A stretch of DNA of 60,898 nucleotides. Source: a virus. The notes below the pieces were generated by a model. The model searched no databases. It was not told the origin of the DNA and saw only the letters and a list, made by a program, of their open reading frames with translations. Positions 9,008 to 59,571 of this stretch are shown here, piece by piece. The position numbers were made by a program, and so were the translations under genes. The DNA is taken from IMG/VR virus record IMGVR_UViG_3300027821_000008, positions 1 to 60,898 of that record; one strand, written 5' to 3'. How positions within the stretch are numbered: the stretch's first letter is position 1; every line of letters begins with the position of its first letter.

Positions 9008-9029
9008 AGCTAAAATAAATTGAATGGAG

Positions 9030-9058
9030 ACCCATCGGACGCGGTGGGTTCTTTTTTT
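9030..9058 (+). terminator. intrinsic terminator after the SSB-like gene
   Basis: An eight-pair stem (9030-9037 with 9042-9049) with a GACG loop is followed by a T tract at 9052-9058. It lies 22 bases after the SSB-like stop, and its tail abuts the start codon of the homing endonuclease at 9059, suggesting the element inserted right behind the terminator. Confidence 0.8.
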
Positions 9059-9733
9059 ATGATAATTGTCCCCGGCAAATATTATGTTTATGCTCACTAT
9101 ACATTGGATGGCGAGCTATTTTACATTGGGAGTGGCAAGTCGCATCGGCCATCCACATCTGAGGGGCGCAATGATCTGTGGACCATTGTGGCAAAAAATG
9201 GCTTTATCGTTCGTGTGCTAAATGAATTTGATACCAAGGCGGAGGCTCTCTGGTGGGAAAACATTTTAATAAGAAAAAACCAAAAAGCGCTAGTAAATAA
9301 ACGAGAGGCAACAGGAGAAGATCACTTTAATTGGGCGACCAAGTGGTCAGAAGAGCATAAAGAAAAATTATCGAAAGCAAAGCTTGGAAAAAAACAATCC
9401 GAAGAACATAAAAGAGCGATAGCCAAGGCCTTAACCGGAAGAAAAAGGTCGGACGCAGAAAAGGCGGCGATATCTCGAGGGCACACCGGAAAAATTCTAA
9501 AAGAGGAAACAAAAAGATTGCTTAGCGAAATAAATTCTGGAGAGCGCAACCCAAGATATGGCGTTCCGATGTCTGATGACGCAAAAAGAAAATCGTCCGA
9601 ATCGCAGAGAGGCAAACCAAAATCAAAAGAAACCCGCCTCAAAATGTCCAATTCAGCCAAATTACGATGTGCCAAAAAGAAGTTGGAAATGGAACAAGCC
9701 CGCCCAAATATAGACGATCACAAGGATTCCTAA
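9059..9733 (+). CDS. GIY-YIG homing endonuclease with NUMOD3 repeats, 224 aa
   Basis: GKYYVYAHYTLDGELFYIGSGK near residues 6-27 is a GIY-YIG core, with the conserved downstream E and N. From about residue 95 there are several copies of the NUMOD3 DNA-binding module (SEEHKEKLSKAKLGKK and relatives), as in phage intron or free-standing endonucleases. ATG 9059 immediately follows the terminator tail. It is paralogous to the genes at 18094-18615 and 32305-32794. Its stop is directly followed by the TOPRIM gene. Confidence 0.85.
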   Translation: MIIVPGKYYVYAHYTLDGELFYIGSGKSHRPSTSEGRNDLWTIVAKNGFIVRVLNEFDTKAEALWWENILIRKNQKALVNKREATGEDHFNWATKWSEEHKEKLSKAKLGKKQSEEHKRAIAKALTGRKRSDAEKAAISRGHTGKILKEETKRLLSEINSGERNPRYGVPMSDDAKRKSSESQRGKPKSKETRLKMSNSAKLRCAKKKLEMEQARPNIDDHKDS

Positions 9734-12666: not shown

Positions 12667-14964
12667 ATGACTCACGCTAAACTGACCAAAAACGCTAACG
12701 ACGCACTTGATCGTGCAGAGGTTCACGCTAAGCAACTTGGTCATTACTTTGTTGGGGCAGACGTTCTAGCCAGAACTCTGATAGATGACGAAGACGTTAA
12801 GGCCGCCATAGAGGGCGCCGGGGCGTCGTTTCAATTAATTGAAATTGGCCTGACAAAAATCGTTGACAGCATGCCAGAAAGCACAAACATCGTTGGGCGC
12901 CCTGCGCTGTCCGCGGTTGTAAAGAATATTGTAATGAATGCAACCATGCATTCCAGTCTTAATCCACGTCAGGCGCTTGCCACGTCCGTTGACATGCTGT
13001 ACCTCGTCATAAGGGCGTCCAATACGGCATCGTCCTCATTCCTTGTTCAAAACGGAGTTACTCTAGACTCACTGCGCCCAAAATGCAGCGTTATGGGCGA
13101 TATCGAGTCCATGCATTCCGAGCCAAAGTCTGGCCCAACTATGGTTAGTGGCGGATTTGACCCATTCTCCGGTCTCGGCAACTCGTCGCAAAGTGCAACA
13201 CGCAGAGCAATTGACGACCCTCTCGCAGGATGCCCGTCGCTCCGCAGGCACGGCATCAATTTGAATGCTCTTGCCCTGGACGGAAAGCTTGATGCATTGG
13301 TTGGCCGCGCAGACGAGATGGATGAGATTATCATGACATTGTCGCGCCGCCGCAAAAACAACCCAATCCTTGTTGGCGATGCAGGAACTGGTAAAACAGC
13401 GATTGTTGAGGGATTGGCGCAACTCCTGACAAGCGAAAATTGCCCGCCAAAGCTGGCCGGACATACCATTGTGAGTGTATCGATCAGCGGACTTGTCGCA
13501 GGAACAAGCACGGTTGGCGTGTTCGAGGACAAGGTAAAAGACATTGTTGAAGAGGCAAAAAGAAGCGGAAAGATTATCCTGTTTTTTGATGAGATTCATA
13601 CGATGAAGGGCGCCGGAACTCATAGTAAGTCGAGTACGGATATGGCTGATATGATCAAGCCAGCACTTGCACGCGGCGAGATCAAAGTCATCGGCGCAAC
13701 CACATACGCAGAATACAAGTCCACATTCGAAAAGGACAAGGCAATCGCTCGTCGATTCCAACTGATCACCATCAATCCTCCTGGAGAGTCCGACTCTGTC
13801 AAGATTCTGGCATCCAATGCACTTGACCTGGAAAAATTCCACGGAGTTTCGTTCGAGGATGGCGCAATTGAGGCAGCAGTATCGTTGGCAAAACGCTACA
13901 TCCTGTTCAAGAATCTGCCTGACAGTGCCCTGGACGCACTGGATGAAGCGGCAACCCGCGCTGCAACCAAGGATGGCATTGTAACAAAGAGTATCATTGA
14001 GGACGTAATCAGCAAGATGGGTAACGTTCCAGTGGATAGCGTTCGCTCGTCCGAGCTGGACAAGCTTGCGTCCCTCGAGGCGTCTATTAAGAAGCGCGTC
14101 TTTGAGCAAGATCATGCGGTTGAGACCGTCTCCAGGGCAATTATTGCCAACAGGGCAGGACTGACCAGAGATAACAAGCCAATTTTGTCGGCCCTCTTCG
14201 GCGGCCCGACTGGCGTTGGTAAGACTGAACTCGCCAAGCAAATCGCCGAACATATGGGCATCAAGTTGATTCGCTTCGACATGTCCGAATACAGCGGAGA
14301 GCATTCTGCCAGCAAATTGGTAGGCTCCCCGGCAGGATATGTGGGATATGAGGATGGCGGCCTGCTCACAAGCGCAGTCATCAAGAATCCGCACTCTGTG
14401 ATCCTGCTTGATGAAATTGAAAAGGCCAGCGACTCCGTATTCAACACATTGCTGCAAGTGCTTGATGATGGTACGCTAACCGACAACCAAGGCAACAAGG
14501 CTGACTTCAGAAGTGTAATTCTGATCATGACAACTAACGCCGGAGCCAAGCATGACGAGAAGGTTCGGTCCATTGGATTCGGATCGCAAAAAAGGGGAAC
14601 AGGCAAAGCAGAGGAGCGGGCGCACTTGGTGGACACGTTCAGCCCTGAATTCCTGAACCGCATTGACAGTATTGTAAAGTTCAACAAGCTTACGGACACT
14701 TCGATCCGCAAAGTGGCAGAGAAGATGTTGGGCGACCTGGTCAAGAAGGCGGCAGAGCGCGGATTCAAGGTAACGCACGGCGATGACGTAACAGACTTGA
14801 TCGCAAAGGATGGACATGATATTGAAATGGGGGCTCGTCCGATTGCACGATCGATCCAAACATTGATCCTCCCTGCCCTTAGCCAAGCGATGATCTTCAA
14901 CGCAGATGCGAAAGAGATCAATCTGGTTGTGGTGGATGGCAAGATTGTGGTTGAAGGGGTATAG
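12667..14964 (+). CDS. clpA: ClpA-type AAA+ unfoldase, 765 aa
   Basis: It has an N-terminal Clp repeat domain (about 1-145), a linker, then two AAA+ modules: Walker A GDAGTGKTAI near 238-246 with Walker B ILFFDEIHT near 303-311, and GGPTGVGKTEL near 510-520 with VILLDEIEK near 580. Length and order equal E. coli ClpA (758). At the ClpP-docking loop, residues 636-638 read IGF, equivalent to IGL in ClpA and identical to the IGF tripeptide of ClpX. A ClpP gene is at 52818-53429. Likely role: a phage-encoded ClpAP protease remodelling host or phage proteins. Confidence 0.95.
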   Translation: MTHAKLTKNANDALDRAEVHAKQLGHYFVGADVLARTLIDDEDVKAAIEGAGASFQLIEIGLTKIVDSMPESTNIVGRPALSAVVKNIVMNATMHSSLNPRQALATSVDMLYLVIRASNTASSSFLVQNGVTLDSLRPKCSVMGDIESMHSEPKSGPTMVSGGFDPFSGLGNSSQSATRRAIDDPLAGCPSLRRHGINLNALALDGKLDALVGRADEMDEIIMTLSRRRKNNPILVGDAGTGKTAIVEGLAQLLTSENCPPKLAGHTIVSVSISGLVAGTSTVGVFEDKVKDIVEEAKRSGKIILFFDEIHTMKGAGTHSKSSTDMADMIKPALARGEIKVIGATTYAEYKSTFEKDKAIARRFQLITINPPGESDSVKILASNALDLEKFHGVSFEDGAIEAAVSLAKRYILFKNLPDSALDALDEAATRAATKDGIVTKSIIEDVISKMGNVPVDSVRSSELDKLASLEASIKKRVFEQDHAVETVSRAIIANRAGLTRDNKPILSALFGGPTGVGKTELAKQIAEHMGIKLIRFDMSEYSGEHSASKLVGSPAGYVGYEDGGLLTSAVIKNPHSVILLDEIEKASDSVFNTLLQVLDDGTLTDNQGNKADFRSVILIMTTNAGAKHDEKVRSIGFGSQKRGTGKAEERAHLVDTFSPEFLNRIDSIVKFNKLTDTSIRKVAEKMLGDLVKKAAERGFKVTHGDDVTDLIAKDGHDIEMGARPIARSIQTLILPALSQAMIFNADAKEINLVVVDGKIVVEGV

Positions 14965-17881: not shown

Positions 17882-18097
17882 TTACTGGGGGAGTGTATCA
17901 TCCTTTTGTGTGGTGGTGTCGGTGGGGGCCGATGGTGCATTGACGTGTGATATTACGCCAACTGCACCCAAACAAACTAAAATTTCTTTCAGTACGTCAA
18001 CAAATGCAGCCACGGGAGTTAGATTAGCCAGGGCCAATCCAAGCCAGATCAGAACAACAAGTCCTGCCGCCCACATCTTGATGGGTATCGATTTCAT
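17882..18097 (-). CDS. two-span membrane protein, holin candidate, 71 aa
   Basis: Hydrophobic segments at about 8-26 and 33-52 are followed by a Ser/Thr/Asp-rich tail. Size, topology and position in the lysis region fit a holin, but the XhlA-like gene at 20155 is an alternative. The start overlaps the end of the GIY-YIG gene by four bases. The C-terminus may be extended by frameshift (see 17766-17881). Confidence 0.5.
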   Translation of the reverse strand: MKSIPIKMWAAGLVVLIWLGLALANLTPVAAFVDVLKEILVCLGAVGVISHVNAPSAPTDTTTQKDDTLPQ

Positions 18098-18615
18098 TCA
18101 ATTTCTCCTGATGAGTTAGGTTGGGTTTGTGTATCTACGAAATACCATTTAAATCCGCCTGCTGATTTGCGTTTACCGTTGCAGCACATGTGTATGCCGT
18201 TACGATTAACCCCGGTGTCTTGGGACGCCTGGTAAATTGAGTTAAAAATAATCTCTGAGCCAACATATGTAACTCTAATTGCCCTGGTTCCGCACGGGTG
18301 CGTCCTGTGCGACCCAATTCCGCTAAAAAAGCCTTTGTAGTTGCTTGGGTTTTTTGAAATATTAACTAACTGAGATTGATTTTCAACAATAACCCTTCTT
18401 TCTAGATCAAGTGCGTGTGATTTTTTATCAAATGAATCAAGCATTCTAACCGTATAGCCATGCGATGCCATCTGCCACCACTCATTGCTGCGCTCTTTTT
18501 CTGAGCAAATGCGAGATGAATTGCCCATGCCCACATAGAACAATACGCCATCTAACGTGTAATGCCCATACACGTAGTATTTGCCTGGAATGATCAGAAT
18601 GCCGTCACTCACCAT
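18094..18615 (-). CDS. GIY-YIG homing endonuclease, 173 aa
   Basis: The core IIPGKYYVYGHYTLDGVLFYVGMGN lies near residues 8-32, with the downstream Arg and Glu. It is paralogous over the catalytic domain to 9059-9733 but lacks NUMOD3 repeats. Instead it ends in the CCNGKRKSAGGFKWYFVD module shared with the HNH gene at 15205-15690. ATG 18615 overlaps the upstream gene by 11 bases; GTG 18612 is an alternative. The 3' end carries GGGTTTG at 18123. Confidence 0.85.
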   Translation of the reverse strand: MVSDGILIIPGKYYVYGHYTLDGVLFYVGMGNSSRICSEKERSNEWWQMASHGYTVRMLDSFDKKSHALDLERRVIVENQSQLVNISKNPSNYKGFFSGIGSHRTHPCGTRAIRVTYVGSEIIFNSIYQASQDTGVNRNGIHMCCNGKRKSAGGFKWYFVDTQTQPNSSGEIE

Positions 18616-41727: not shown

Positions 41728-42240
41728 TCAATTAATCAATAGCTTTATTATTTCTTCAGTTATGCCATAATCCTCAGCCAATTCTTTAATTGTTGACTTT
41801 TTGGAATAATATCTTGCGTAGATTTCGCAAATCTGAGCCTGCTTTAGATTGCCTAATTTTTGTGCAGATAAGAGCCTCTTTGTCTCTGTTGTGTCACAGC
41901 TTGCCGAAGTTCTTTTTTTTGCTAATTTTCTATCGGCATAGCTTTTGCTGCGACCAACATTGGCATTAACCAGGTGCTGCCAGTGCGTTGCGATCAAAGA
42001 TGCCTCAAGCTCAAATGCCTCTTTTTCTTGTGAATCCGAGAAAACCGCAATAATTGACACCATGTATCCATCAGCAGCCGCGGCCTTCCATGAGTTTAGG
42101 CGACCTATGTTGGAATATGCCCTAGATAGCCTCCCTTTACCAATATAGAATGGCACGTCTTCGTTGTGTTTAAAATGAGCGTAAACACAAAAAGAATCGC
42201 TATCAGCCGTAAAGCAAAAATCATTAATTTTATTTTCCAT
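41728..42240 (-). CDS. GIY-YIG homing endonuclease, 170 aa
   Basis: The core FCVYAHFKHNEDVPFYIGKGRLSRAY lies near residues 12-37, followed by W and E positions of the family. The C-terminus has a helix-turn-helix-like end (STIKELAEDYGITEEIIKLLI). ATG 42240 was preferred to an upstream TTG. It is directly joined to the HNH gene, so two homing genes sit in tandem between head genes. Confidence 0.8.
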   Translation of the reverse strand: MENKINDFCFTADSDSFCVYAHFKHNEDVPFYIGKGRLSRAYSNIGRLNSWKAAAADGYMVSIIAVFSDSQEKEAFELEASLIATHWQHLVNANVGRSKSYADRKLAKKRTSASCDTTETKRLLSAQKLGNLKQAQICEIYARYYSKKSTIKELAEDYGITEEIIKLLIN

Positions 42241-42244
42241 GATT

Positions 42245-42739
42245 TCAACTATTTGCAAATGGAATGATTGACTTGAGGGCTTGTTTGAATTCTTCGTCAG
42301 ACATGGACAGCTTGGCCGAATTTACCCAATGGCATACCCATCTGCAATTATTCTTTGTATATCCTTTTGACGGATCAATTCGATCGATTGATGGGGAGAG
42401 TGGGTTTGGACCAGTCCACGATCTGATTGATGGTCCGGACACAAGCTCTGCGCCAGTTATTGCGCATACGCCGGAATATGTCATCTCTGCCCAGTCGTCG
42501 TCTAAATTAAACTGTTGAGATGATTTATCGGACCTAGTCTTTGCGCCTCTGATTATGTGCGACCACGGCCTGGCCGAGTATGATTTTTTGTGTCTTTCTG
42601 AGTCGCAAATAACGCAGCAACCATTACTTGTATAGCGGCTATTTCCGTGCCCGAATTTACATTCCATTCCGTCGTAAAATTTCAGACCCTGAGCAATTGC
42701 CTCTTTGCGACTAATGATTTTTTTATCACTCACCGCCAA
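42245..42739 (-). CDS. HNH endonuclease with zinc finger, 164 aa
   Basis: N-terminal CKFGHGN...CCVICDSERHKKS is a four-ligand finger. The nuclease core is YSGVCAITGAELVSGP...PSIDRIDPSKGYTKNNCRWVCHWVN near 88-138, with D-R-I-D and N-C-R-W as in HNH enzymes of this subgroup. ATG 42739 overlaps the head morphogenesis stop by 14 bases. Confidence 0.8.
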   Translation of the reverse strand: MAVSDKKIISRKEAIAQGLKFYDGMECKFGHGNSRYTSNGCCVICDSERHKKSYSARPWSHIIRGAKTRSDKSSQQFNLDDDWAEMTYSGVCAITGAELVSGPSIRSWTGPNPLSPSIDRIDPSKGYTKNNCRWVCHWVNSAKLSMSDEEFKQALKSIIPFANS

Positions 42740-45820: not shown

Positions 45821-45861
45821 TTGATATTCCTGTTAGTTTGCGATAGCCGCGTGATAATAAC

Positions 45862-45890
45862 ATTATACCACACGACTATCGATTTGTCAA
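45862..45890 (-). promoter_or_regulatory. perfect promoter before the DEDD exonuclease
   Basis: Minus strand TTGACA (45890-45885), 17 bases, TATAAT (45867-45862). It begins just behind the IbrB stop codon and would drive exonuclease, portal and head genes. Confidence 0.8.
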
Positions 45891-45893
45891 GCC

Positions 45894-46394
45894 TTATTGG
45901 TCTGCTTCAGAAAATTCTCTGTCAATAAACAAAGAGGCCAGCCCGCTAAGTTGCTTTAATCGCAATAACTCATCCTTATCCATACCAATATTCTTGCGAA
46001 TCCATCCGTCTGACGCCCCGGACGCAACAAGCTCAGCAACGATATTGGTCATAAGGTCGATCGAGTGACTTCCGCGTGCGCGATTGTGGCGAATCGTAGA
46101 TGCCATGCGACCCTCAATCGGCTTATCAATAACAACCACCGGCAATAGACCACCTTCTCGCTCAAATATACGCTTGCTGGTCTTCAGCGTTGTGTACCTG
46201 TGAAATCCGTCAACAATTTCGTACATATCCTCGTCAGGATAGTAATAGCACACAACTGGCATCGTATAGCCGTCTTCCCATATGCTGGTTTCCAGAAGTT
46301 TCATTTCTGGCGCAGCAACCGAGTTTGGGTTATACGCGTTTGCCCTAATTTTTGCCAGGGGGACTGCGCGAACATTATAAACTGGAGACGTCAT
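45894..46394 (-). CDS. ibrB: IbrB-like ParB/sulfiredoxin-domain protein, 166 aa
   Basis: ParB-type core: AVPLAKIRANAYNPNSVAAPEMKLLETSI, then YEIVDGFHRYTTLKTSKR near 58-75 and ASTIRHNRARGSHS near 98-111, matching IbrB proteins that pair with IbrA. The start overlaps the IbrA stop by four bases (ATGA), so the two are coupled. Its fold relates to ParB and DndB-like proteins; the biochemical role of IbrAB is not established. Confidence 0.8.
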   Translation of the reverse strand: MTSPVYNVRAVPLAKIRANAYNPNSVAAPEMKLLETSIWEDGYTMPVVCYYYPDEDMYEIVDGFHRYTTLKTSKRIFEREGGLLPVVVIDKPIEGRMASTIRHNRARGSHSIDLMTNIVAELVASGASDGWIRKNIGMDKDELLRLKQLSGLASLFIDREFSEADQ

Positions 46395-47695
46395 TTCGAT
46401 ATTTCCTTTTTGCGAGCGTATTTCTTTAGGGCCTCTTTGCGAAGATCGCGTTGATGCTTGGTAATTGCGAATCCCAATCTCTTACAGGTGATGTCGTTTG
46501 CAAGAATCACGGAGCAGAATTTCTTCCACGTAGGAACATCGCACTTTGTGTAAATTGCAGGAAGGTCGTCAAGAATCTTGTTGAACTTCACTACGTGCTT
46601 TTCTCCGCGACCTCTCTTGCTAAACTTCTCTGTATTTACAGCGGCTCCAGCAGGTATTTCTTTGATGTGCTGCGGCAGCATTGGAGAGCCGGTGTAATGC
46701 CAATACTTAATGTACTTTACGAACCGAGACATATAATTGTCTCTTGTGGCGGTCGGAAGCGTCTTCATCAAGAACTTGCAGTACGACTTCCACGTGTGTC
46801 CAGCAGGTAGCGTCATGTCGGCCGAACCAATTGCCTTGGTTCCACAGTAGATATTGCCGAAATTAACGCCACTAACCCTGTCAAGAAGCCTGCCCCAAGT
46901 CTCTGGTTCAATGATTCTGAACATATTCAGGCCGGCTTTTTGTTCATCTCCGAACGGCTCGCAGATGCGCATCTTTCCAAGCGCAACGCCAGCCTTGTAA
47001 AACTGATCGTATGTCTCGTTGTATGGCGCCGCAGTTTTTGCGTGATATGTCCAAATATCCTCTACAGTCCAATCGTAAATTGGGTAGAAGTTGACAGTCA
47101 GATCGGTTTTTACTACCGAATACTTTACATTCTCGAAGCGAGAAACGTCATCCCTATTCAGGGCGCGCCAACGATTCAAGCTCTCCTGCGTTCTGATGCC
47201 AACCAGTCCGGCGCACTTGCCGCCATTTTCTTTTGCGAACCAGTCGCCGAATTCAGTAATGAAGTCCTCGAATGTGATTCCTTCGTGCCAGAATCTGCCG
47301 AATGGGTTGTTATCGCTGTTGATAACATATTCAGACTCAGGCATTGGGCGAACCCATTTATCCTTCTTTTCTGGGTCCCAGAACTTCCACCAGGTTTCAT
47401 GCATGCTAACCGTATTCCAGGAGCGCATAGGAAGGCATATCCACATCGGCGTCGCAAGATGTGCATTATCCATCATAAGCTTCCAGGAGAAGTCATGAGT
47501 GCGCTTGTAGTGACCCTCAAGATCAATGAACAACGTTGTGCATTTTTTGCCAGCGCCGGCCGGGCTGCGTAGAAAGTCGTACACCAGATTAACAAGTGTT
47601 CCGCTATCCTTGCCGCCACTAAATGCAATATAGACATTGTCAAATTTAGAGAATATATACTCTATTCTCTGTTTGGCCGCGTCATAAACATTCAT
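46391..47695 (-). CDS. ibrA: IbrA-like PAPS-reductase family protein (DUF3440), 434 aa
   Basis: The PP-loop ATP-binding motif YIAFSGGKDSGTLVNL lies at 22-37. Conserved family features follow: LFIDLEGHYKRTHDF, the long W-rich block TPMWICLPMRSWNTVSMHETWW, GLVGIRTQESLNRWRA near 165-180 and PIYDWTVEDIWTYHA. Related to PAPS reductases and DndC, which handle sulfur on DNA. Overlaps the terminase stop by one base (TAATG). IbrA/IbrB pairs occur in phages and islands; a DNA or RNA sulfur chemistry role is a hypothesis. Confidence 0.85.
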   Translation of the reverse strand: MNVYDAAKQRIEYIFSKFDNVYIAFSGGKDSGTLVNLVYDFLRSPAGAGKKCTTLFIDLEGHYKRTHDFSWKLMMDNAHLATPMWICLPMRSWNTVSMHETWWKFWDPEKKDKWVRPMPESEYVINSDNNPFGRFWHEGITFEDFITEFGDWFAKENGGKCAGLVGIRTQESLNRWRALNRDDVSRFENVKYSVVKTDLTVNFYPIYDWTVEDIWTYHAKTAAPYNETYDQFYKAGVALGKMRICEPFGDEQKAGLNMFRIIEPETWGRLLDRVSGVNFGNIYCGTKAIGSADMTLPAGHTWKSYCKFLMKTLPTATRDNYMSRFVKYIKYWHYTGSPMLPQHIKEIPAGAAVNTEKFSKRGRGEKHVVKFNKILDDLPAIYTKCDVPTWKKFCSVILANDITCKRLGFAITKHQRDLRKEALKKYARKKEISK

Positions 47696-49206
47696 TACAT
47701 GCCCTCCATATTTCCGAGTCCAATTGACACTCCATATGCAAATGCATCCACAAGATCATCAACTTGATTGTTTCTGCCAAGCTGATATTGAAATACCTGA
47801 GACATGAAATGATTTCTTGTTGAGTTCTTGAATTTCACTTGCTTGTTGTATGCGTGATCTGACAGCATTACATTTCGCAGACCCATATATCCTGTGATGG
47901 ATATTGCCCTGGTGTCCTTGCCAAGCGATGTGAACTTGGAAGAGATTGCGTTTAGCTGCCAGCCCTTCTTGGCGGCAAAAGACAGCATGGCGGTGCCAGC
48001 GGCCTTATCCTCAACCCAAATCCCAGCGCTCCCATATCTCGCCCTGCACGCAACGCTTAACTCCTCTAGGCGTGTAAGCTGCTGCGGAATCCAGTCCGTC
48101 ATCATCTCAGAGTCAAGCTGAACAACATCCCAGTCTAGAACGATCAGCGGTGTGCCGAAGTGCATTGATCTGGCAAAGAACACGATTGCGGTTCCGTCAT
48201 TCTTGTCTCCGGCCTTAAATGCTGTATCAAGGCATGCATAAACCGTATCACATGTAACTGGATATTGGCACGGAAGACCCTCGTAGCTAAGAACATCTGC
48301 TGAATTAAATAGAACGCCACCCTCTATCTCTGGTCTCTGCTGATACAGCGATGCCCATGTCCGTTTGTCGCCAAGTCTATATTGATCCCAGTGCTGAGAG
48401 TCGAACCACTCAGGCCAAAGAGATTCGCCAATCTCGCGACCCATTGGATCATTTGGCTTTTCGCAGATAGCAGGAACGCACAAAACGTCCCACATTGTGC
48501 CATCTCGACACAAAATCTCTCCAGACTCGCCCTTCCAGTCTTCTGGAAGCAGTCTGCCGGCGATATCATTTATCGACCATCTCGTCATAATCAGAACCTG
48601 AGACCCGCCAGGAATCAGACGAGACTTAATGGAGTCTGAATATTCTGCCCAAACAGAATCTTGTACAGACATAGAGTCTGCCTCTTCGCGATTCTTGACC
48701 GGGTCATCAATTATAACCATATCGGCGCGCTTACCGGTAATGCCGGTCTTGATACCTGCCGGTGTAAAGCTGCTTCCATTTTCAAGCTCAAGTCCGAGAT
48801 CAGACGAGAATGAACCCATCTGCGGCTTTGTCCCGGTCAATGTCTGATATCTCGGCGATTCAAAGATTTTCATCAGCTTCTTGGCATTATAGTCCGCATG
48901 ATCCTTGTTATAGGTTGCGAAGATAACGCGATAGCCAGGATTCATCCCCATAAAGTATGCCGGGGCAACCCATGACGCATAAGTTGATTTGGCAGAACCT
49001 GGGGGGAAGAAGATCATCAAGCGCCCGTACGGCTTTTCCATCGCATCTTTAAGCTTGTTCAGTATAAGCTCGTGGTGCGTGGCAACGCCTGCGCCATCCG
49101 GCCTGCCTGGCACGTATATCTGTCTTGCGAACTCGCAGATATCCTGTCTCGCCTTGCGACGAGAAAGAACCTCTTGAGCTGCCTTTTGTTTTGCGCTTAA
49201 AGTCAT
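47695..49206 (-). CDS. terL: terminase large subunit, 503 aa
   Basis: ATPase domain with MIFFPPGSAKSTYASW near 63-78 and Walker B ADMVIIDDPVKNREEA near 160-175. The nuclease domain shows VYACLDTAFKAGDKNDGTAIVF and the C-terminal NNQVDDLVDAFAYGVSIG with catalytic Asp residues. ATG 49206 overlaps the decarboxylase stop by four bases. It cuts and pumps DNA into the prohead. Confidence 0.9.
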   Translation of the reverse strand: MTLSAKQKAAQEVLSRRKARQDICEFARQIYVPGRPDGAGVATHHELILNKLKDAMEKPYGRLMIFFPPGSAKSTYASWVAPAYFMGMNPGYRVIFATYNKDHADYNAKKLMKIFESPRYQTLTGTKPQMGSFSSDLGLELENGSSFTPAGIKTGITGKRADMVIIDDPVKNREEADSMSVQDSVWAEYSDSIKSRLIPGGSQVLIMTRWSINDIAGRLLPEDWKGESGEILCRDGTMWDVLCVPAICEKPNDPMGREIGESLWPEWFDSQHWDQYRLGDKRTWASLYQQRPEIEGGVLFNSADVLSYEGLPCQYPVTCDTVYACLDTAFKAGDKNDGTAIVFFARSMHFGTPLIVLDWDVVQLDSEMMTDWIPQQLTRLEELSVACRARYGSAGIWVEDKAAGTAMLSFAAKKGWQLNAISSKFTSLGKDTRAISITGYMGLRNVMLSDHAYNKQVKFKNSTRNHFMSQVFQYQLGRNNQVDDLVDAFAYGVSIGLGNMEGM

Positions 49207-50801
49207 TCGCAGCAATCTATAAAATATTTGCCATCAATTTTTCGGACGCCATGCACTGGCAATATATCTCTTCCGAGTTTATCATTTAGAGCCAAACAGG
49301 CAGAAATGTATTTAATTACAACCTCTGAGAATACTTCTCCTGGCATGATAACAGGAATTCCCGGTGGGTATGGCGCGACAATTACGCACGATATTTGTCC
49401 GTGTAATTCAGCCAAAGGCACGGGGATGCTTTTGCCAGATATCAGCGCATTATGCGCCCTGCGAGGAATCATCTCTTGGTCCGGCAAAATCGTATACGCC
49501 CAATTGCAGATGTTGATTATATCATACTCTGCAAGAGTCGTGTTAATTTCTTTTGCCGCTTGTTGCATTCCGCCAACATCACGATTGTATACAGAACAAA
49601 ACTCTGACAATGAATTAATCAACATGTCAACATAAGGACGAGGCGTTCCGACGGTAATTAATGCCAAAAACGAGTATAGGCCAACCTTTTCAACGTTAAT
49701 TCCTCGAAACACAAGGTGATCGCTAACGATGGCAGCTGGAACATTTCCGCATGTTATTGTGACCTTGGTAACGTCGTGAATTTGGAGTCCCCTCTCAAAT
49801 TGCGGAAAAGACACTCTAAAAAAGAAGTCGCTATCTTTTTCTGCGAGAAAGCCAATCTTATCTCGAATCATCATGGCAACCTTCCTTGCCTCTGCCACCA
49901 GATCACGACCAGACTCTTCCATTGCCCTGGCATTCATATCACATGAGGCGATCAGCGGATAGCTTGGTGAGGTGGTCGAGTGCATAAGATATGACTGATC
50001 AAGCGAAGGCCCATTATGTTTTCTTACGCCATCCTTAACTAAAATTTGCGATGACTGAGTGAGCGCCAACGATGTTTTATGTATTGACTGCGAAGAAAAG
50101 ATGGGGCACACATTATCAACGACATCCATTGCCCTGTATCCCCTATACCATCCAGAGAAATACGTATGAGAAGACCACGCCTCATCAAAATGAATCGCGT
50201 GCATCATAGAAGATAGCTCGTCAGATATTCTTTGGCAATTATACATAATTCCGTCGTATGTTGCCTGTGTTAATACCAAGACGGTCCGCCTATCTCCGCC
50301 CCATCCGATAAGTCGCGATTTTCCGATAGCGCTACATATATTTTCTTTTGTGAGCTGACTAGAGTCGACGCCAAGAATCTCTCCATTATTCCCGCGAGAT
50401 GGAACTAGGTACACCGGGATTGCGCCAGACTCTATTATGGCGTGCATAACAGACTTGTGACAATTTCTGTCAACAATAGCAATATCACCTTCAGACAAAA
50501 CTGAAGACACGATTATTCTGTTTGACGCAGAGGTGCCACCAACAGAGAAGTATAGCTTATCTGCTCCATACACAGAAGCGGCATAACCCTCTGATTCGGC
50601 AATGCCTCCTGAGTGTGTAAGAAGCTGCCCAAGCTGATCTACGGAATTGCATGCATCGGCAAGAAATAGATTCTTTCCAAAGAAGGACAAAAAATCAGCT
50701 GAGGCCTGACTATGAGAAAGCGCATTGCCAGAGTTATGACCAGGGCAATGAAGTGATGTTGGCGATCCGTCAGCGTATTTTTTAAGCTCTTTGAAAAACA
50801 T
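49203..50801 (-). CDS. Lys/Arg/Orn-type PLP decarboxylase, 532 aa
   Basis: Fold-type I decarboxylase of the LdcI/AdiA/SpeF group: DRNCHKSVMHAI at 111-122, HFDEAW at 204-209 (Asp for the PLP ring nitrogen), SQSIHKTSLALTQS at 237-250 with the Schiff-base Lys 242, and the C-terminal APYPPGIPVIMPGE motif. The N-terminal wing domain of the enterobacterial enzymes (about 130 residues) is missing; the protein begins near the PLP domain. Product would be cadaverine, agmatine or putrescine; the substrate cannot be told by eye. It lies between HD hydrolase and terminase, overlapping both. Confidence 0.85.
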   Translation of the reverse strand: MFFKELKKYADGSPTSLHCPGHNSGNALSHSQASADFLSFFGKNLFLADACNSVDQLGQLLTHSGGIAESEGYAASVYGADKLYFSVGGTSASNRIIVSSVLSEGDIAIVDRNCHKSVMHAIIESGAIPVYLVPSRGNNGEILGVDSSQLTKENICSAIGKSRLIGWGGDRRTVLVLTQATYDGIMYNCQRISDELSSMMHAIHFDEAWSSHTYFSGWYRGYRAMDVVDNVCPIFSSQSIHKTSLALTQSSQILVKDGVRKHNGPSLDQSYLMHSTTSPSYPLIASCDMNARAMEESGRDLVAEARKVAMMIRDKIGFLAEKDSDFFFRVSFPQFERGLQIHDVTKVTITCGNVPAAIVSDHLVFRGINVEKVGLYSFLALITVGTPRPYVDMLINSLSEFCSVYNRDVGGMQQAAKEINTTLAEYDIINICNWAYTILPDQEMIPRRAHNALISGKSIPVPLAELHGQISCVIVAPYPPGIPVIMPGEVFSEVVIKYISACLALNDKLGRDILPVHGVRKIDGKYFIDCCE

Positions 50802-52467: not shown

Positions 52468-52818
52468 TTATTGAGACTTCAGTTTCGCAATATATTCGTC
52501 GTATGTCAAGTTATTTTTTTCGGCCTCGATCTCAGTTTGCAACAAAGCAAGAATTCTCCATGCTGCTTTTGCTGTGTGCCTTAATCCGTCAGAGTCCAGC
52601 TTTCCGTGATCCATGAAGTGACGTATTGCGCTATCTGCGTGCTGAGTGCTTTTTCCCTTTGACCAATGAAGTGGCTGTCCGGGATTATGCTGATCGTTGC
52701 CTACCTGGGAAACTCTAGACACAGCCGCTAAAGCGTCAGGAAAATATGCAAGAACTCCAGTTGCAATCGGAGTCGCTTTTCTTTCTGAGTCATCGCTGGA
52801 AATTGTCAAATTAGACAT
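52468..52818 (-). CDS. dATP/dGTP diphosphohydrolase-like protein (DUF5664), 116 aa
   Basis: Matches the family pattern KATPIATGVLAYFPDALAAVSRVSQVGNDQHNPGQPLHWSKGKSTQHADSAIRHFMDHG through to DGLRHTAKAAWRILALLQTE. This group is annotated as dATP/dGTP diphosphohydrolase in phages and would adjust dNTP levels. ATG 52818 overlaps the ClpP stop by one base. Confidence 0.8.
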   Translation of the reverse strand: MSNLTISSDDSERKATPIATGVLAYFPDALAAVSRVSQVGNDQHNPGQPLHWSKGKSTQHADSAIRHFMDHGKLDSDGLRHTAKAAWRILALLQTEIEAEKNNLTYDEYIAKLKSQ

Positions 52819-53429
52819 TATTCATCCTCGCCATTGTTAATGTCTGACAGATTGTAAATAACCCTATCAAGGAATCCATATTCAACGGCCTCTTGCGGAG
52901 ATAAGAATAGGTCCCTGTCGCAGTCCTTCACTATTTGTTTGAGCGTCTTACCTGTGTTTGCAGACATAATTTCAAACAATCTCTTGTTCAGGTATTCTGT
53001 TTCCTTTAGATCAACTCTCATGTCAACAATTGTTCCACGCGTTCCACTGCTAACTTGGTGAGCCATAATCCTGCTGTTTGGCAATGAGAAGCGCTTTCCT
53101 TTGGCTCCACCTGATGCCAAGAAGCAACCCATACTCATGGCGATTCCAGAGACAACCGTTACAACGTCATTGCTGATCGCTTGCATCATGTCGTATATTG
53201 CAAGACCAGAATAAACGCTGCCACCTGGGCTATTGATAATGAGCGTGATATCCTCTTCCGGGTCTGATGCATTCAGGTACATGAGCTGCATGATAATTGC
53301 GTGCGCGCTATCGTCGTCAACGTCTCCGTTAAGAAAAACTATCCTCTCCTTAAGCATTCGAGAGTGCATGTCATAACTTTTCTCTCCGCGACCAGATTTT
53401 TCAATAACTACAGGAACGATAGTTGACAT
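52818..53429 (-). CDS. clpP: ClpP serine protease, 203 aa
   Basis: Full-length match in layout to bacterial ClpP: PVVIEKSGRGEKSYDMHSR at the N-terminus, INSPGGSVYSG near 65-75, and the triad Ser 99 (GIAMSMGCF), His 124 (NSRIMAHQ) and Asp 173 (CDRDLFLS), offset by two from mature E. coli ClpP. ATG 53429 follows AAGGA; a start at 53459 lacks a site. It probably assembles with the phage ClpA (12667-14964). Alternative role: capsid maturation, less likely because a DUF2213 protease is present. Confidence 0.9.
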   Translation of the reverse strand: MSTIVPVVIEKSGRGEKSYDMHSRMLKERIVFLNGDVDDDSAHAIIMQLMYLNASDPEEDITLIINSPGGSVYSGLAIYDMMQAISNDVVTVVSGIAMSMGCFLASGGAKGKRFSLPNSRIMAHQVSSGTRGTIVDMRVDLKETEYLNKRLFEIMSANTGKTLKQIVKDCDRDLFLSPQEAVEYGFLDRVIYNLSDINNGEDE

Positions 53430-53485
53430 GCTTATTTCCTTTTTGGTGGGCTTGTTCATTTCAAATATGCCTAGAACGCATCAGA

Positions 53486-54152: not shown

Positions 54153-54181
54153 ATTATATCATGCGTTTATCGATTTGTCAA
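54153..54181 (-). promoter_or_regulatory. late promoter, proximal copy
   Basis: Minus strand TTGACA (54181-54176), 17 bases, TATAAT (54158-54153), followed directly by the 36-bp repeat. Reads into the packaging and structural block. Confidence 0.85.
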
Positions 54182-56053: not shown

Positions 56054-59000
56054 ATGTCGTTCGTTAATCTTGCTGTATTCTCTAACTTATCTGCCCCTAT
56101 CGGCGGGGTGGATATTTTGCGCGCTATCGCATTCGCAAAGAATGACGGACAGGAGTCGATTGCGATCATAGAAAATATGTCAATGTTCGGCCTGCTACAG
56201 TTCCACAAATTGGCACTGCGCGAAGGTGTCAAGCCAATTACCGGAGCAAGATTGACATTTGGCGATCACCGAGCAATCTTCATTGCCAAGAATCATAGCG
56301 GATTCCAATACATATCTCAGGCAATATCAGCCGGCAGGCTGTCAGAGTCAGGCCATTGCTATTTGGCAGACATGAGTCAGTCAAATGACGTTGTCGTTAT
56401 TGCAGAGGCCGCTGACGCAGACTTCATCGCTGCTCTCGCAGGAAAATTCCATCACACATACCTGTCATCTGAATTCGTAACATCTTCTGGTCACGCATCG
56501 CTGGCGCCAGTTGCTGCTGTTCGTTCGGCATACTTTGTGCAGGCAGGGGAGCACGAAATGTCCGTGGCGCTTGCAAGCATACGCACGGCACAAGACATCC
56601 TAAAGCCAAACGATTCTATCTCTGTATCTGCGGCAATGACGAGTTCATCTTTCGCGCATAGCTCGCTTAAGCACATCGACGGAGCAATTGAAAACGCCAG
56701 GCAAATCGAACTGATGAGCAATTTCGTCCTGGAGCAAAGAAAGCCAGAGCTTCCGGAGTTTGGAGGACTTGACGAGAAATCCCAATTTGCACTTCTGGCA
56801 AACAATGTAAAAGAAGGATTGCAGTCTATCGGCAAGATAGATGACGAAGAATACAAGTCGAGGGCAAGATTTGAACTCAAAGTAATTCGCGAGATGGGGT
56901 TTGTTGGCTATCACTTAATCGTCGCAGATTATATCAAGTTTGCAAGAGACTGCGGAATTGGCGTTGGGCCTGCGCGTGGATCGTCTGCTGGTTCGCTCGT
57001 TTGTTACTTGATCGGTATCACACAAGTTGACCCAATAAAACACAGCCTCCTGTTCGAGCGCTATCTCAATCCTGATCGCGTCAGCTATCCTGATATCGAC
57101 ACCGACTTCGCATCTGCTGGCCGTGATCGCGTAATCGACTATCTTCTGGAAGAATATGGCGATGGTCACGTTTCCAAAATATCAACGATCGGCACATTCG
57201 GCGCAAAGTCTGCAATCAGGGCCGCATGCAGGTATCTTGGCATTGATTTTGCTCAGTCTGGCAAGATTGCTGACCTGGTGCCAAATTCACCGAACAAGAC
57301 AGTGTTGCTTGGTCGCAAAGACACAACCGAGAAATTTTGGAATGAAGTTTCTGTTGTCCCAGCACTGAGGCCAGTTGCCGAAATCGCATCTTTCATCGAA
57401 GGGCAGTGCGCCTCCATCGGTACACACGCCGCAGGCATAATTATCTCTGGCTCTCACATCAGCTCAATCGCCCCGCTAATCCCTGTCGAAGGCAGTATAG
57501 TCCCAGCAGTCGGACTGGATAAAGACGATGCGGAGAAGCTTGGTCTGGTTAAGATGGACTTGCTTGGCCTGTCAACACTTGACCTTCTTGCTCAGGCAGA
57601 AAGCGATATCAAGGCAAAGGTTGACGAAGAATTCTCTCTGAGAGAGATTGACATCAATGATGATCTTGCGCTGAGCATGTTGCGCCGCGGAATTACGAAG
57701 AGTATATTTCAGTTTGAAAGCCAAGGGATCACCAACCTGATCGCACGCGTAGAGCCAAAGCAATTTGAGGACATCGTTGCTGTGACATCCCTGTACCGCC
57801 CAGGGCCAATGGAACTATCCGAAGACTTCGTGGCAAATACGGGCGTCGCCCCACATCCACTATTACAAAATATTACAAGTGAGACGAGGGGGATTATCAT
57901 CTATCAGGAGCAGGTCATGAAGGCCGCACAGATTGTTGGCGGATTCACACTGGCAGAAGCAGACTTGATGCGTCGCGCTATGGGCAAGAAGGATGTCGAG
58001 CAGATGGGGGCCATGCGGTCTAAATTTGTTAGCGGGGCAAAGAAAAATAACGTATCGGAAGAAGATGCAAATCACGTATTCGATTTGTTGGATCGATTCA
58101 GTGGATACGGCTTTAACAAAAGTCACGCTGTTGCGTATTCGATTATCACAATGCAAACCGCCTACGTCAAGGCGCATTACCCTGAAATATTCTACGCGGC
58201 TGCAATGCAGACCAATATCGGCGACGGAGAGAAGATCGCTGCGCTTGCAAAAGAGGCCAGGGACAGCTTCGGCATCGAGGTGCTTTCGCCATGCATCAAC
58301 TCATCTGACTATCTATTCACGGCATCAAAGGGAAAAATTAGATATGGATTGAGTGGTGTATTCGGTATCGGCTCAGAGGTCATTGAGAATATATGCTTTG
58401 ATCGTGAGATTCGCGGCGAGTACAGAGACCTCAAGGAATTCATTGATAGGCTTCCAAAGATCGCCGTTCTGAAGAAGGTTGCTACCGGCCTGGCTATGAG
58501 CGGAGCATTGGATGCGTTCGGTGTGTCGCGGTCTGCAATTATCGCAACGCTGGATGAAATCGGCAAGCCAAAAAAGAAAAAGGCGAAGAAGGATTTGTTT
58601 GGGGCTGACGAAGAGGAATCATTCTCATATGTCGAGGCGGAGCAGCTGACACCAAAAGAGATATACGCTGGAGAGGTGAAGTACACTGGGATCGCATTCA
58701 GCGCGTCACCGCTTGGTATGCTCACGCGCAAGTTCAGGAAATTCGCTCCACTGACCATAGATAAGGTTGTCCCATCGGATAGGGCCATCCAGTCGGTATG
58801 CGGCGAGATCAAATCGGTGCGCAAGATCAAGACGAAGAATGGTGATGATATGTGCTTTCTGACCATTGAAGACGAAAGTGGCAGCCTGGATGCTGTTGTT
58901 TTTCCTCGCACATACGCAACAATGCCGCAAGTGAAGAAGGGCGACTTCGTGCTTGCTAAGGGCAAGGTAGATCGCGGACAAAACAAGGATGGCGCGAAAC

Positions 59001-59062
59001 AATTGATCATAGATAAATTACTTGATCAAAAGGGTGCGTTGCAGCTGATTGGAGGAGCGTGA
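56054..59062 (+). CDS. dnaE: DNA polymerase III alpha subunit (DnaE type), 1002 aa
   Basis: C-family polymerase. An N-terminal PHP-like domain (1-~200) has lost its metal-binding HxH (NLAVFS). The palm carries PARGSSAGSLVCYL near 305-318 and the catalytic Asp residues D349 and D351 in PDIDTDF, with D502 in VKMDLLGL. Helix-hairpin-helix near 765-775; KKDLF near 845-849 fits a beta-clamp motif; an OB fold follows at ~915-990. Bacterial alpha is ~1160 residues, and here the tau-binding C-terminal domain is absent. GGGGG site before ATG. Confidence 0.95.
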   Translation: MSFVNLAVFSNLSAPIGGVDILRAIAFAKNDGQESIAIIENMSMFGLLQFHKLALREGVKPITGARLTFGDHRAIFIAKNHSGFQYISQAISAGRLSESGHCYLADMSQSNDVVVIAEAADADFIAALAGKFHHTYLSSEFVTSSGHASLAPVAAVRSAYFVQAGEHEMSVALASIRTAQDILKPNDSISVSAAMTSSSFAHSSLKHIDGAIENARQIELMSNFVLEQRKPELPEFGGLDEKSQFALLANNVKEGLQSIGKIDDEEYKSRARFELKVIREMGFVGYHLIVADYIKFARDCGIGVGPARGSSAGSLVCYLIGITQVDPIKHSLLFERYLNPDRVSYPDIDTDFASAGRDRVIDYLLEEYGDGHVSKISTIGTFGAKSAIRAACRYLGIDFAQSGKIADLVPNSPNKTVLLGRKDTTEKFWNEVSVVPALRPVAEIASFIEGQCASIGTHAAGIIISGSHISSIAPLIPVEGSIVPAVGLDKDDAEKLGLVKMDLLGLSTLDLLAQAESDIKAKVDEEFSLREIDINDDLALSMLRRGITKSIFQFESQGITNLIARVEPKQFEDIVAVTSLYRPGPMELSEDFVANTGVAPHPLLQNITSETRGIIIYQEQVMKAAQIVGGFTLAEADLMRRAMGKKDVEQMGAMRSKFVSGAKKNNVSEEDANHVFDLLDRFSGYGFNKSHAVAYSIITMQTAYVKAHYPEIFYAAAMQTNIGDGEKIAALAKEARDSFGIEVLSPCINSSDYLFTASKGKIRYGLSGVFGIGSEVIENICFDREIRGEYRDLKEFIDRLPKIAVLKKVATGLAMSGALDAFGVSRSAIIATLDEIGKPKKKKAKKDLFGADEEESFSYVEAEQLTPKEIYAGEVKYTGIAFSASPLGMLTRKFRKFAPLTIDKVVPSDRAIQSVCGEIKSVRKIKTKNGDDMCFLTIEDESGSLDAVVFPRTYATMPQVKKGDFVLAKGKVDRGQNKDGAKQLIIDKLLDQKGALQLIGGA

Positions 59063-59571
59063 TGGCTAAGCCTAACAATGACAAATATCTAGACTTTATT
59101 TCAAGATATAAAGTGAGTGAAGATGGGACGTGTGTGAGTCCTAGTGGGAAAATTCTATCTTATGGCGATAGAGGGCACGGGTATATCAGTGTCGGACATT
59201 ATAGCCCCAACGACAAAAAGGCCACGCAAGTCTTGCTTCATAGGGTGCTTGCCACTAAATTCCTGTCAAACCCACTCAGCCTTCCATTTGTAAATCATAT
59301 TGATGGAAACAAACTAAATAATTCGCTAGATAATTTGGAGTGGTGTACAAGCTCGCAAAACCAAAAACATGCGTATAGCTCCGGTCTAAAGACCCCGGCA
59401 AAGAATTGTGGAGGATACGGGAAAAAATGCATCAGGGAAACTGTATCTGGGTTTGTATATGAGTCTATCGCGTCAGCGTCCAGAAGTCTTGGCATCGATG
59501 TATCCTCTATCTCAAAATACATGAGATGCAAAGGATACCGCTTCGAATTTGTCAACGAGTCTGACAAATAA
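59062..59571 (+). CDS. HNH homing endonuclease with NUMOD modules, 169 aa
   Basis: ATG 59062 overlaps the polymerase stop (TGATG). Nuclease core: LHRVLATKFLSNP, then VNHIDGNKLNNSLDNLEWCTSSQNQKHA near 75-105, with H-x-D-G-N and N-L-E-W typical of phage HNH enzymes. The last ~45 residues are a NUMOD1-type DNA-binding module (VSGFVYESIASASRSLGIDVSSISKYM). Inserted directly behind the polymerase gene. Confidence 0.85.
   Translation: MAKPNNDKYLDFISRYKVSEDGTCVSPSGKILSYGDRGHGYISVGHYSPNDKKATQVLLHRVLATKFLSNPLSLPFVNHIDGNKLNNSLDNLEWCTSSQNQKHAYSSGLKTPAKNCGGYGKKCIRETVSGFVYESIASASRSLGIDVSSISKYMRCKGYRFEFVNESDK

Follow-up and report, generated by a model that had tools for sequence, protein, structure and literature searches.

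A known IbrA–IbrB pair in an unusual phage setting, and a tentative case for amine-type DNA hypermodification

The stretch of DNA analysed here, referred to as the window, is the 60,898-base viral contig IMGVR_UViG_3300027821_000008, which is possibly a fragment. On its minus strand, genes for a ClpP-type head protease, TerS, an HD phosphohydrolase (by PHROG an HD-type deoxynucleotide phosphatase), an Orn/Lys/Arg decarboxylase, TerL, IbrA, IbrB, an exonuclease and the portal follow one another in that order. The following features form the core of the locus:

49203–50801, minus strand: Orn/Lys/Arg decarboxylase (PF01276, 312 bits), in a common operon with ibrAB
47695–49215, minus strand: terL, immediately upstream of ibrA (PHROG 38)
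46391–47695, minus strand: ibrA, PP-loop ATPase with PAPS_reduct and DUF3440, 434 residues (Pfam and PHROG)
45894–46394, minus strand: ibrB, ParB/KorB-like nucleotide-binding domain and helix-turn-helix, 166 residues (PHROG 2159)
45862–45890, minus strand: consensus sigma-70 promoter between ibrB and the exonuclease gene

The stop codon of terL and the start codon of ibrA overlap in TAATG, which places the ibrAB pair in the late terminase operon, and the ibrA stop and ibrB start overlap in ATGA. A first-pass annotation had reported the IbrA–IbrB pair, its four-base overlap and its location in a packaging module; both minus-strand reading frames lie exactly where it had put them, the junction reads ATGA, and the order from TerS to TerL, IbrA, IbrB, exonuclease and portal is borne out by Pfam and PHROG. 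In Shewanella phage QDWS, which has a related portal, terL and the portal gene are adjacent with nothing between them. Single-protein pattern scans of IMG/VR returned no close relatives of TerL or of the decarboxylase. As a general rule, a partnership with TerL was discarded: terminase genes do not figure in the recurring neighbourhood of IbrAB, and most relatives adjoin replication or recombination genes. The window copy is a known and named pair in an unusual place.

The HK motif of the decarboxylase aligns with the decarboxylase active site, and the protein is without the AdiA-type N-terminal wing domain. It falls into no PHROG family, and what matches it among isolated phages looks like host or metagenome sequence rather than a close relative. 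No homologue occurs in 53 non-redundant IbrA loci, and the decarboxylase was therefore dismissed as a standard partner of IbrAB; because of this absence, the idea that it could supply an amine for the pair is speculative. Elsewhere in the window, a ClpP-family head protease (52818–53459) and a ClpB-like AAA protein (12667–14964; PHROG 4871, E = 7e-218) are encoded by the same phage. Homing-type endonuclease-like genes lie at 1366–2025, 9020–9733, 41728–42258, 18094–18615 and 59059–59571, with endonuclease VII/HNH and NUMOD3 members recognised by profile, and GIY-YIG-like and HNH-like members by sequence reading. A 1002-residue reading frame on the plus strand (56054–59062) resembles the DNA polymerase III alpha subunit by sequence reading alone.

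The promoter behind ibrB is one of eight exact TTGACA-N15..19-TATAAT promoters in the window, where 0.04 would be expected (158+, 5582+, 12365+, 24620−, 32839−, 45862−, 54153− and 54549−), and the copies at 45862–45890 and 54153–54181 share TTGACAAATCGATA. It is overlapped by an imperfect inverted repeat (45841–45881; 16-nt arms, 81%). As a repeated operator this element was rejected, its half site not recurring beyond chance in the window. No sites resembling parS, KorB or Noc operators and no shared palindromes were found near the pair beyond chance, and no palindromic operator common to the loci stood out among the 132 compared.

IbrA contains PAPS_reduct (PF01507; 46.2 bits, cut-off 22.5) followed by DUF3440 (PF11922; 186.9 bits, cut-off 25), and with both domains above cut-off and in this order it belongs to the IbrA proteins of the DUF3440, COG3969 type; it also matches PHROG 2302 (E = 1.3e-91). 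IbrB matches PHROG 2159 (E = 8.1e-76); its gene is adjacent to and co-directional with ibrA, and it carries the DGxHR and RHNRARGxH motifs of the pair. The first-pass annotation had noted that family motifs are present, and this holds when they are followed through 137 non-redundant pairs (n = 137 below):

47603–47620, minus strand: PP-loop SGGKDS, IbrA residues 26–31; Ser26, Gly28, Lys29, Asp30 and Ser31 invariant (n = 60) and at least 97% conserved (n = 137)
47435–47437, minus strand: IbrA Cys87, the sole well conserved cysteine (96%)
47171–47200, minus strand: GIRTQESLNR, IbrA residues 166–175 (G-x-R-x-x-E-S-x-x-R); Arg168, Glu171, Ser172 and Arg175 invariant (n = 60), at least 97% (n = 137)
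47069–47092, minus strand: NFYPIYDW, IbrA residues 202–209; Tyr204, Pro205, Ile206, Tyr207 and Asp208 invariant (n = 60), Pro205 and Asp208 at least 97% (n = 137)
46197–46211, minus strand: DGFHR, IbrB residues 62–66; Asp62, Gly63, His65 and Arg66 invariant (n = 56), at least 97% (n = 137)
46065–46091, minus strand: RHNRARGSH, IbrB residues 102–110; Asn104, Ala106, Arg107, Gly108 and His110 invariant (n = 56), at least 97% (n = 137)
45930–46061, minus strand: IbrB helix-turn-helix, residues 112–155, with a conserved recognition helix; Gly137, Glu142 and Arg145 about 100%, Gln148 99%

In the same 137 pairs, the G166-x-R-x-x-E-S-x-x-R stretch as well as Asp213 and Arg243 of IbrA are at least 97% conserved, and IbrB also keeps N19-x-Y-N-P-N, Glu30, Arg96 and R102-H-N-x-A-R-G-x-H.

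The AlphaFold model of IbrA has a mean pLDDT of 89. For residues 1–269, the predicted fold is nearest to PP-loop enzymes that transfer AMP, namely the PAPS domain of human FAD synthase (Z 16.3 over 167 residues, rmsd 2.7) and CysD (Z 15.9), with APS and PAPS reductases at Z 14–16 and TilS at about 11–13. Matches no more than one Z unit apart were treated as ties, so that the fold by itself does not discriminate between an adenylyltransferase and a reductase. The top sequence match in the PDB is likewise CysD (E = 1.3e-7). A reductase is disfavoured by the cysteine pattern: none of the cysteines is invariant among 137 non-redundant sequences, and Cys394 and Cys404 are conserved to only 78% and 77%, unlike a C-terminal catalytic cysteine of the CysH type. 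In line with this, the CysH model TIGR00434 gives 25.5 bits against a cut-off of 165.1, and IbrA is not classed as a CysH PAPS reductase.

For IbrB (mean pLDDT 85), Pfam ParB_N reaches 20.7 of the 26.3 bits set as cut-off, and the protein does not classify as a ParB partition protein. Its model nevertheless has the ParB-type fold with helix-turn-helix characteristic of the ParB/KorB CTPases: the match to KorB spans 152 of the 166 residues (Z 14.5, rmsd 4.1), and residues 112–156 resemble helix-turn-helix domains, including the DNA-binding domain of KorB (Z 5.6). A reading of IbrB as a SerK-like kinase was also considered: DGxHR is common to both, but the alignment covers no more than 42 residues at E = 0.04. 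The helix-turn-helix residues Glu142, Arg145 and Gln148 are fixed across phyla; phage-specific operator readers behave differently, which favours a DNA target for IbrB that is common to its hosts.

The pairing of the two proteins is close to obligate and far beyond chance. Both genes are present in 77 of 80 viral and 78 of 80 bacterial loci seeded with IbrA, and in all 75 newly fetched viral loci seeded with IbrB, IbrA is encoded on the same strand. A collection of 50,697 phage records includes 215 with IbrA and 218 with IbrB, with near-identical tallies of the main host genera when counted family by family. The distances within the two families are correlated (r 0.57, permutation p 0.001), for which shared ancestry could suffice. 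IbrB is the more conserved partner, with a mean pairwise identity of 58% against 43% for IbrA.

In relatives, the pair usually lies amid replication and recombination genes rather than packaging genes, and in a set of 207 non-redundant IbrAB pairs a number of further enzymes recur beside the two genes. An SNF2-type helicase gene accompanies 68 pairs and in most cases overlaps ibrA or lies immediately upstream of it. An ectoine-synthase-like cupin is found with 32 pairs, encoded between ibrA and ibrB in 19, fused to the N-terminus of IbrB in 12 and elsewhere in the locus in one; these cupins score 123–158 bits with Pfam Ectoine_synth (cut-off 27). GNAT-like genes occur with 37 pairs, 25 directly upstream of ibrA and 13 between the two genes (two copies in one locus counted). 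Three of them (loci L073, L088 and L093) exceed the Pfam cut-off, while many are weak or without a match in Pfam and several rest on a profile built here. Methyltransferase-like genes (6 of 207) and PD-(D/E)XK genes (9 of 207) are less frequent. A frame beside ibrA in another locus (L089, 22–636) matches both the SNF2 and the GNAT-like profiles, suggesting a fusion of the two, and has no match in Pfam. A family with WE..Y near the N-terminus and NLTN..NR.SWIGQA is present in 73 of the 207 loci, among them 31 of the 32 with ectoine synthase, often directly behind ibrB (L193, 715–1116; L224, 3545–3988; and others). In Fusobacterium phage phiFN37 (L170, 9748–11033), a second ParB-like protein and a DpdA-like queuine tRNA-ribosyltransferase are encoded some 3–4 kb from IbrAB, so that two candidate DNA-modification modules adjoin. 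The control of a PF08775 search found nothing.

Five of the 50,697 phage records encode an ectoine-synthase-like protein. Four of these have it in an IbrAB module (Gaia twice, Nebkiss and XCL1123), and the fifth has no IbrAB within the 9.6 kb read. Phage records contain proteins annotated as "ectoine synthase/ParB multidomain protein", and the open-access papers searched yielded none that link IbrAB with ectoine synthase or test IbrAB chemistry. In an IbrA tree built from 138 representatives, ectoine synthase requires a single state change (shuffled mean 14.5), GNAT-like genes 15 (27.5) and SNF2 20 (44.3); ectoine synthase is one lasting acquisition, and the other two were gained or lost several times. 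Ectoine-synthase and GNAT-like genes never co-occur (hypergeometric p 0.001), an exclusion that is not phylogenetically independent because the former represents one event on the tree. The window IbrA groups with three loci (L086, L087 and L088) in which the operon reads SNF2, GNAT-like, IbrA, IbrB. In the window itself, the profiles for the third genes have no match, SNF2 is likewise absent, and neither a methyltransferase of PF01555 nor a thymidylate synthase of PF00303 was found.

Taken together, the pairing across phyla, the PP-loop enzyme, the unvarying recognition helix and the tailoring enzymes are best fitted by chemistry on DNA. We tentatively favour, with somewhat less than even confidence, an ATP-dependent DNA hypermodification system of amine rather than sulfur type. 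IbrA and IbrB would act on DNA as one two-part enzyme system, in which IbrB, through its KorB-like nucleotide-binding domain and helix-turn-helix, would bind a DNA target common to all hosts. IbrA, as an AMP-forming PP-loop enzyme, would spend ATP on activating an atom of the nucleic acid, either a base carbonyl or a phosphate, and a small nucleophile would then replace this atom or become attached to it. The product may be elaborated in many relatives by a tailoring enzyme, be it an ectoine-synthase-like cyclase, an acetyltransferase or a methyltransferase, and in phages the modification may serve to protect the genome. It is the position of such enzymes beside or between ibrA and ibrB that argues for an amine-type hypermodification over sulfur. 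Ectoine synthase closes the ring in an N-acetylated diamino acid, which makes an amine-type side chain a natural guess. A precedent is offered by CmoY, a phage ligase of the asparagine-synthetase-like kind, for which adenylation of 5-carboxymethylcytosine in DNA has been proposed and which attaches glycine to that base, with ParBc proteins in many of the CmoY-type contigs (PMC12783734); an AMP-forming ligase would thus act on phage DNA with ParBc nearby. Several observations count against hypermodification: the window is without tailoring genes, PF01555 and PF00303; the ectoine-synthase link is a single tree event, and the Pfam scores of the GNAT-like genes are weak; and YbdN/YbdM is chromosomal in E. 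coli, without a phage context. A more far-reaching version, in which an IbrAB core that can exchange its tailoring enzymes (a cyclase of the ectoine-synthase type, an acetyltransferase or a methyltransferase) constitutes an unrecognised and very widespread DNA hypermodification family that includes YbdN/YbdM in nearly every E. coli, and in which the amine is here provided by the operon decarboxylase, is in our judgement unlikely as a whole.

The main alternative is that IbrAB is a transcription co-activator, with IbrB as a nucleotide-switched, KorB-like DNA binder whose state is set by IbrA, and with late or host promoters as the site of action in the window phage. The family is reportedly named for the activation of prophage eib genes (Sandt 2002), and prophage gene activation is to our knowledge the sole published activity of IbrAB. 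KorB, which IbrB matches over its full length, is a transcriptional repressor, and ibrB is followed by a consensus promoter that an inverted repeat overlaps. A co-activator would, however, leave unexplained the catalytically conserved partner enzyme, the adjacent or fused tailoring enzymes and a recognition helix that is invariant between phyla; moreover, no shared palindromic operator stood out in the 132 loci, and the half site in the window is not repeated beyond chance. We regard this alternative as rather unlikely. Modification of tRNA or a free nucleotide in aid of phage replication, by TilS-like or nucleotide-pool chemistry, would agree with the presence of TilS and other nucleotide-acting PP-loop enzymes in the fold list, and with the HD-type deoxynucleotide phosphatase in the operon. 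The KorB-like helix-turn-helix of IbrB, together with the SNF2 helicase that accompanies 68 of the 207 pairs, is a better fit to DNA, which makes such a role decidedly improbable.

A further alternative is the transfer of sulfur to DNA or nucleotides by IbrA, in a reduced DndC-like thiolation that uses a host cysteine desulfurase. The resemblance of phage PAPS-reductase-like proteins to DndC is already in print (PMC8092301), and DndB is also a member of the ParB superfamily (PMC10853773). The kinship of IbrA with DndC, asserted by the first-pass annotation, stands at the level of the PP-loop superfamily and fails for DndC proper: TIGR03183 matches residues 164–231 only and scores 33.4 bits where 290.4 are required. 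With the DndC and CysH models, the scores are roughly one tenth and one sixth of the respective cut-offs. A cysteine dyad and a [4Fe-4S] cluster are indispensable to DndC chemistry (PMC10853773; C280 in PMC11662687), and the lack of an invariant cysteine in IbrA leaves no counterpart for the dyad or the cluster ligands. Cys87, which in the model comes directly after a core strand of the PP-loop domain, keeps thiol chemistry conceivable, but several members whose PP-loop is intact have Ala, Ser or a different residue at this position, and E. coli IbrA and YbdN are among those with Ala. That DndD and a cysteine desulfurase are missing from the 60,898-base window had been remarked on before and is correct. 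The accompanying suggestion that sulfur chemistry would rely on the host finds no visible need, with DndD above cut-off in only 2 of 50 IbrA-bearing genomes, and dependence on a host Dnd system is not supported on this count; nor is a sulfur-handling gene among the commonest neighbour families of IbrAB relatives. Overall, the DndC-like reading is weakly supported, and we consider sulfur transfer by IbrA a slim prospect. Slimmer still is a direct counter-defence against DNA-sulfur or other restriction of the host, with the phage DNA itself unmodified. The pair is phage-borne and variable in position, and such cassettes are frequent in phages, but it is chromosomal in E. coli and, by published annotation, in Listeria, where there is no obvious need for counter-defence, and DndD is rare in IbrA-bearing genomes.

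Although the IbrAB pair itself is known and named, the pattern of tailoring genes around it is the part worth following. Phages from many phyla carry the pair, and nearly all E. coli have it as YbdN/YbdM, some match to it being present in 5373 of 5426 genomes. It is routine for phage copies to be listed among sulfur-metabolism genes, as PAPS reductase, a reading against which the present evidence argues. Should the reading of the neighbours as tailoring genes be true, there may be a modification in phage and bacterial DNA that has so far been overlooked, and hypermodification by IbrAB is directly testable in a standard laboratory strain.

Compared with known systems, the E. coli pairs IbrA/IbrB and YbdN/YbdM agree with the window in families, gene order, IbrB motifs, PP-loop and R-x-x-E-S motif, and differ in being chromosomal, in an extra N-terminal stretch of IbrB, in having Ala in place of Cys87, and in the absence of a terminase neighbour. 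Listeria lmo1309–1311 (IbrB, IbrA and SNF2; annotated in PMC5736727) contains the same pair, together with the SNF2 helicase that the window lacks. Mycobacterium phage Gaia (genes 102–104) and Pseudoalteromonas phage XCL1123 have IbrA followed by IbrB as in the window, but with an ectoine-synthase domain that is fused to IbrB in Gaia and encoded between the two genes in XCL1123; the window has neither arrangement. As for IbrAB, DndC/DndB combines a PP-loop enzyme with a ParB-superfamily protein, whereas IbrAB lacks the Cys dyad, the Fe-S ligands and DndD, and its model score is far below cut-off. With the KorB, ParB and Noc CTPases, IbrB appears from its model to share the fold of the nucleotide-binding domain and the helix-turn-helix, while DGxHR replaces the GERR box and the protein is shorter, with 166 residues. 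The CmoX/CmoY system for 5-carboxymethylcytosine may be analogous to the activity proposed here for IbrAB, with an AMP-forming ligase acting on phage DNA and ParBc in the same contigs (PMC12783734). Unlike IbrA, CmoY is asparagine-synthetase-like and needs CmoX and CmoA, and the likeness would lie in chemistry and gene context.
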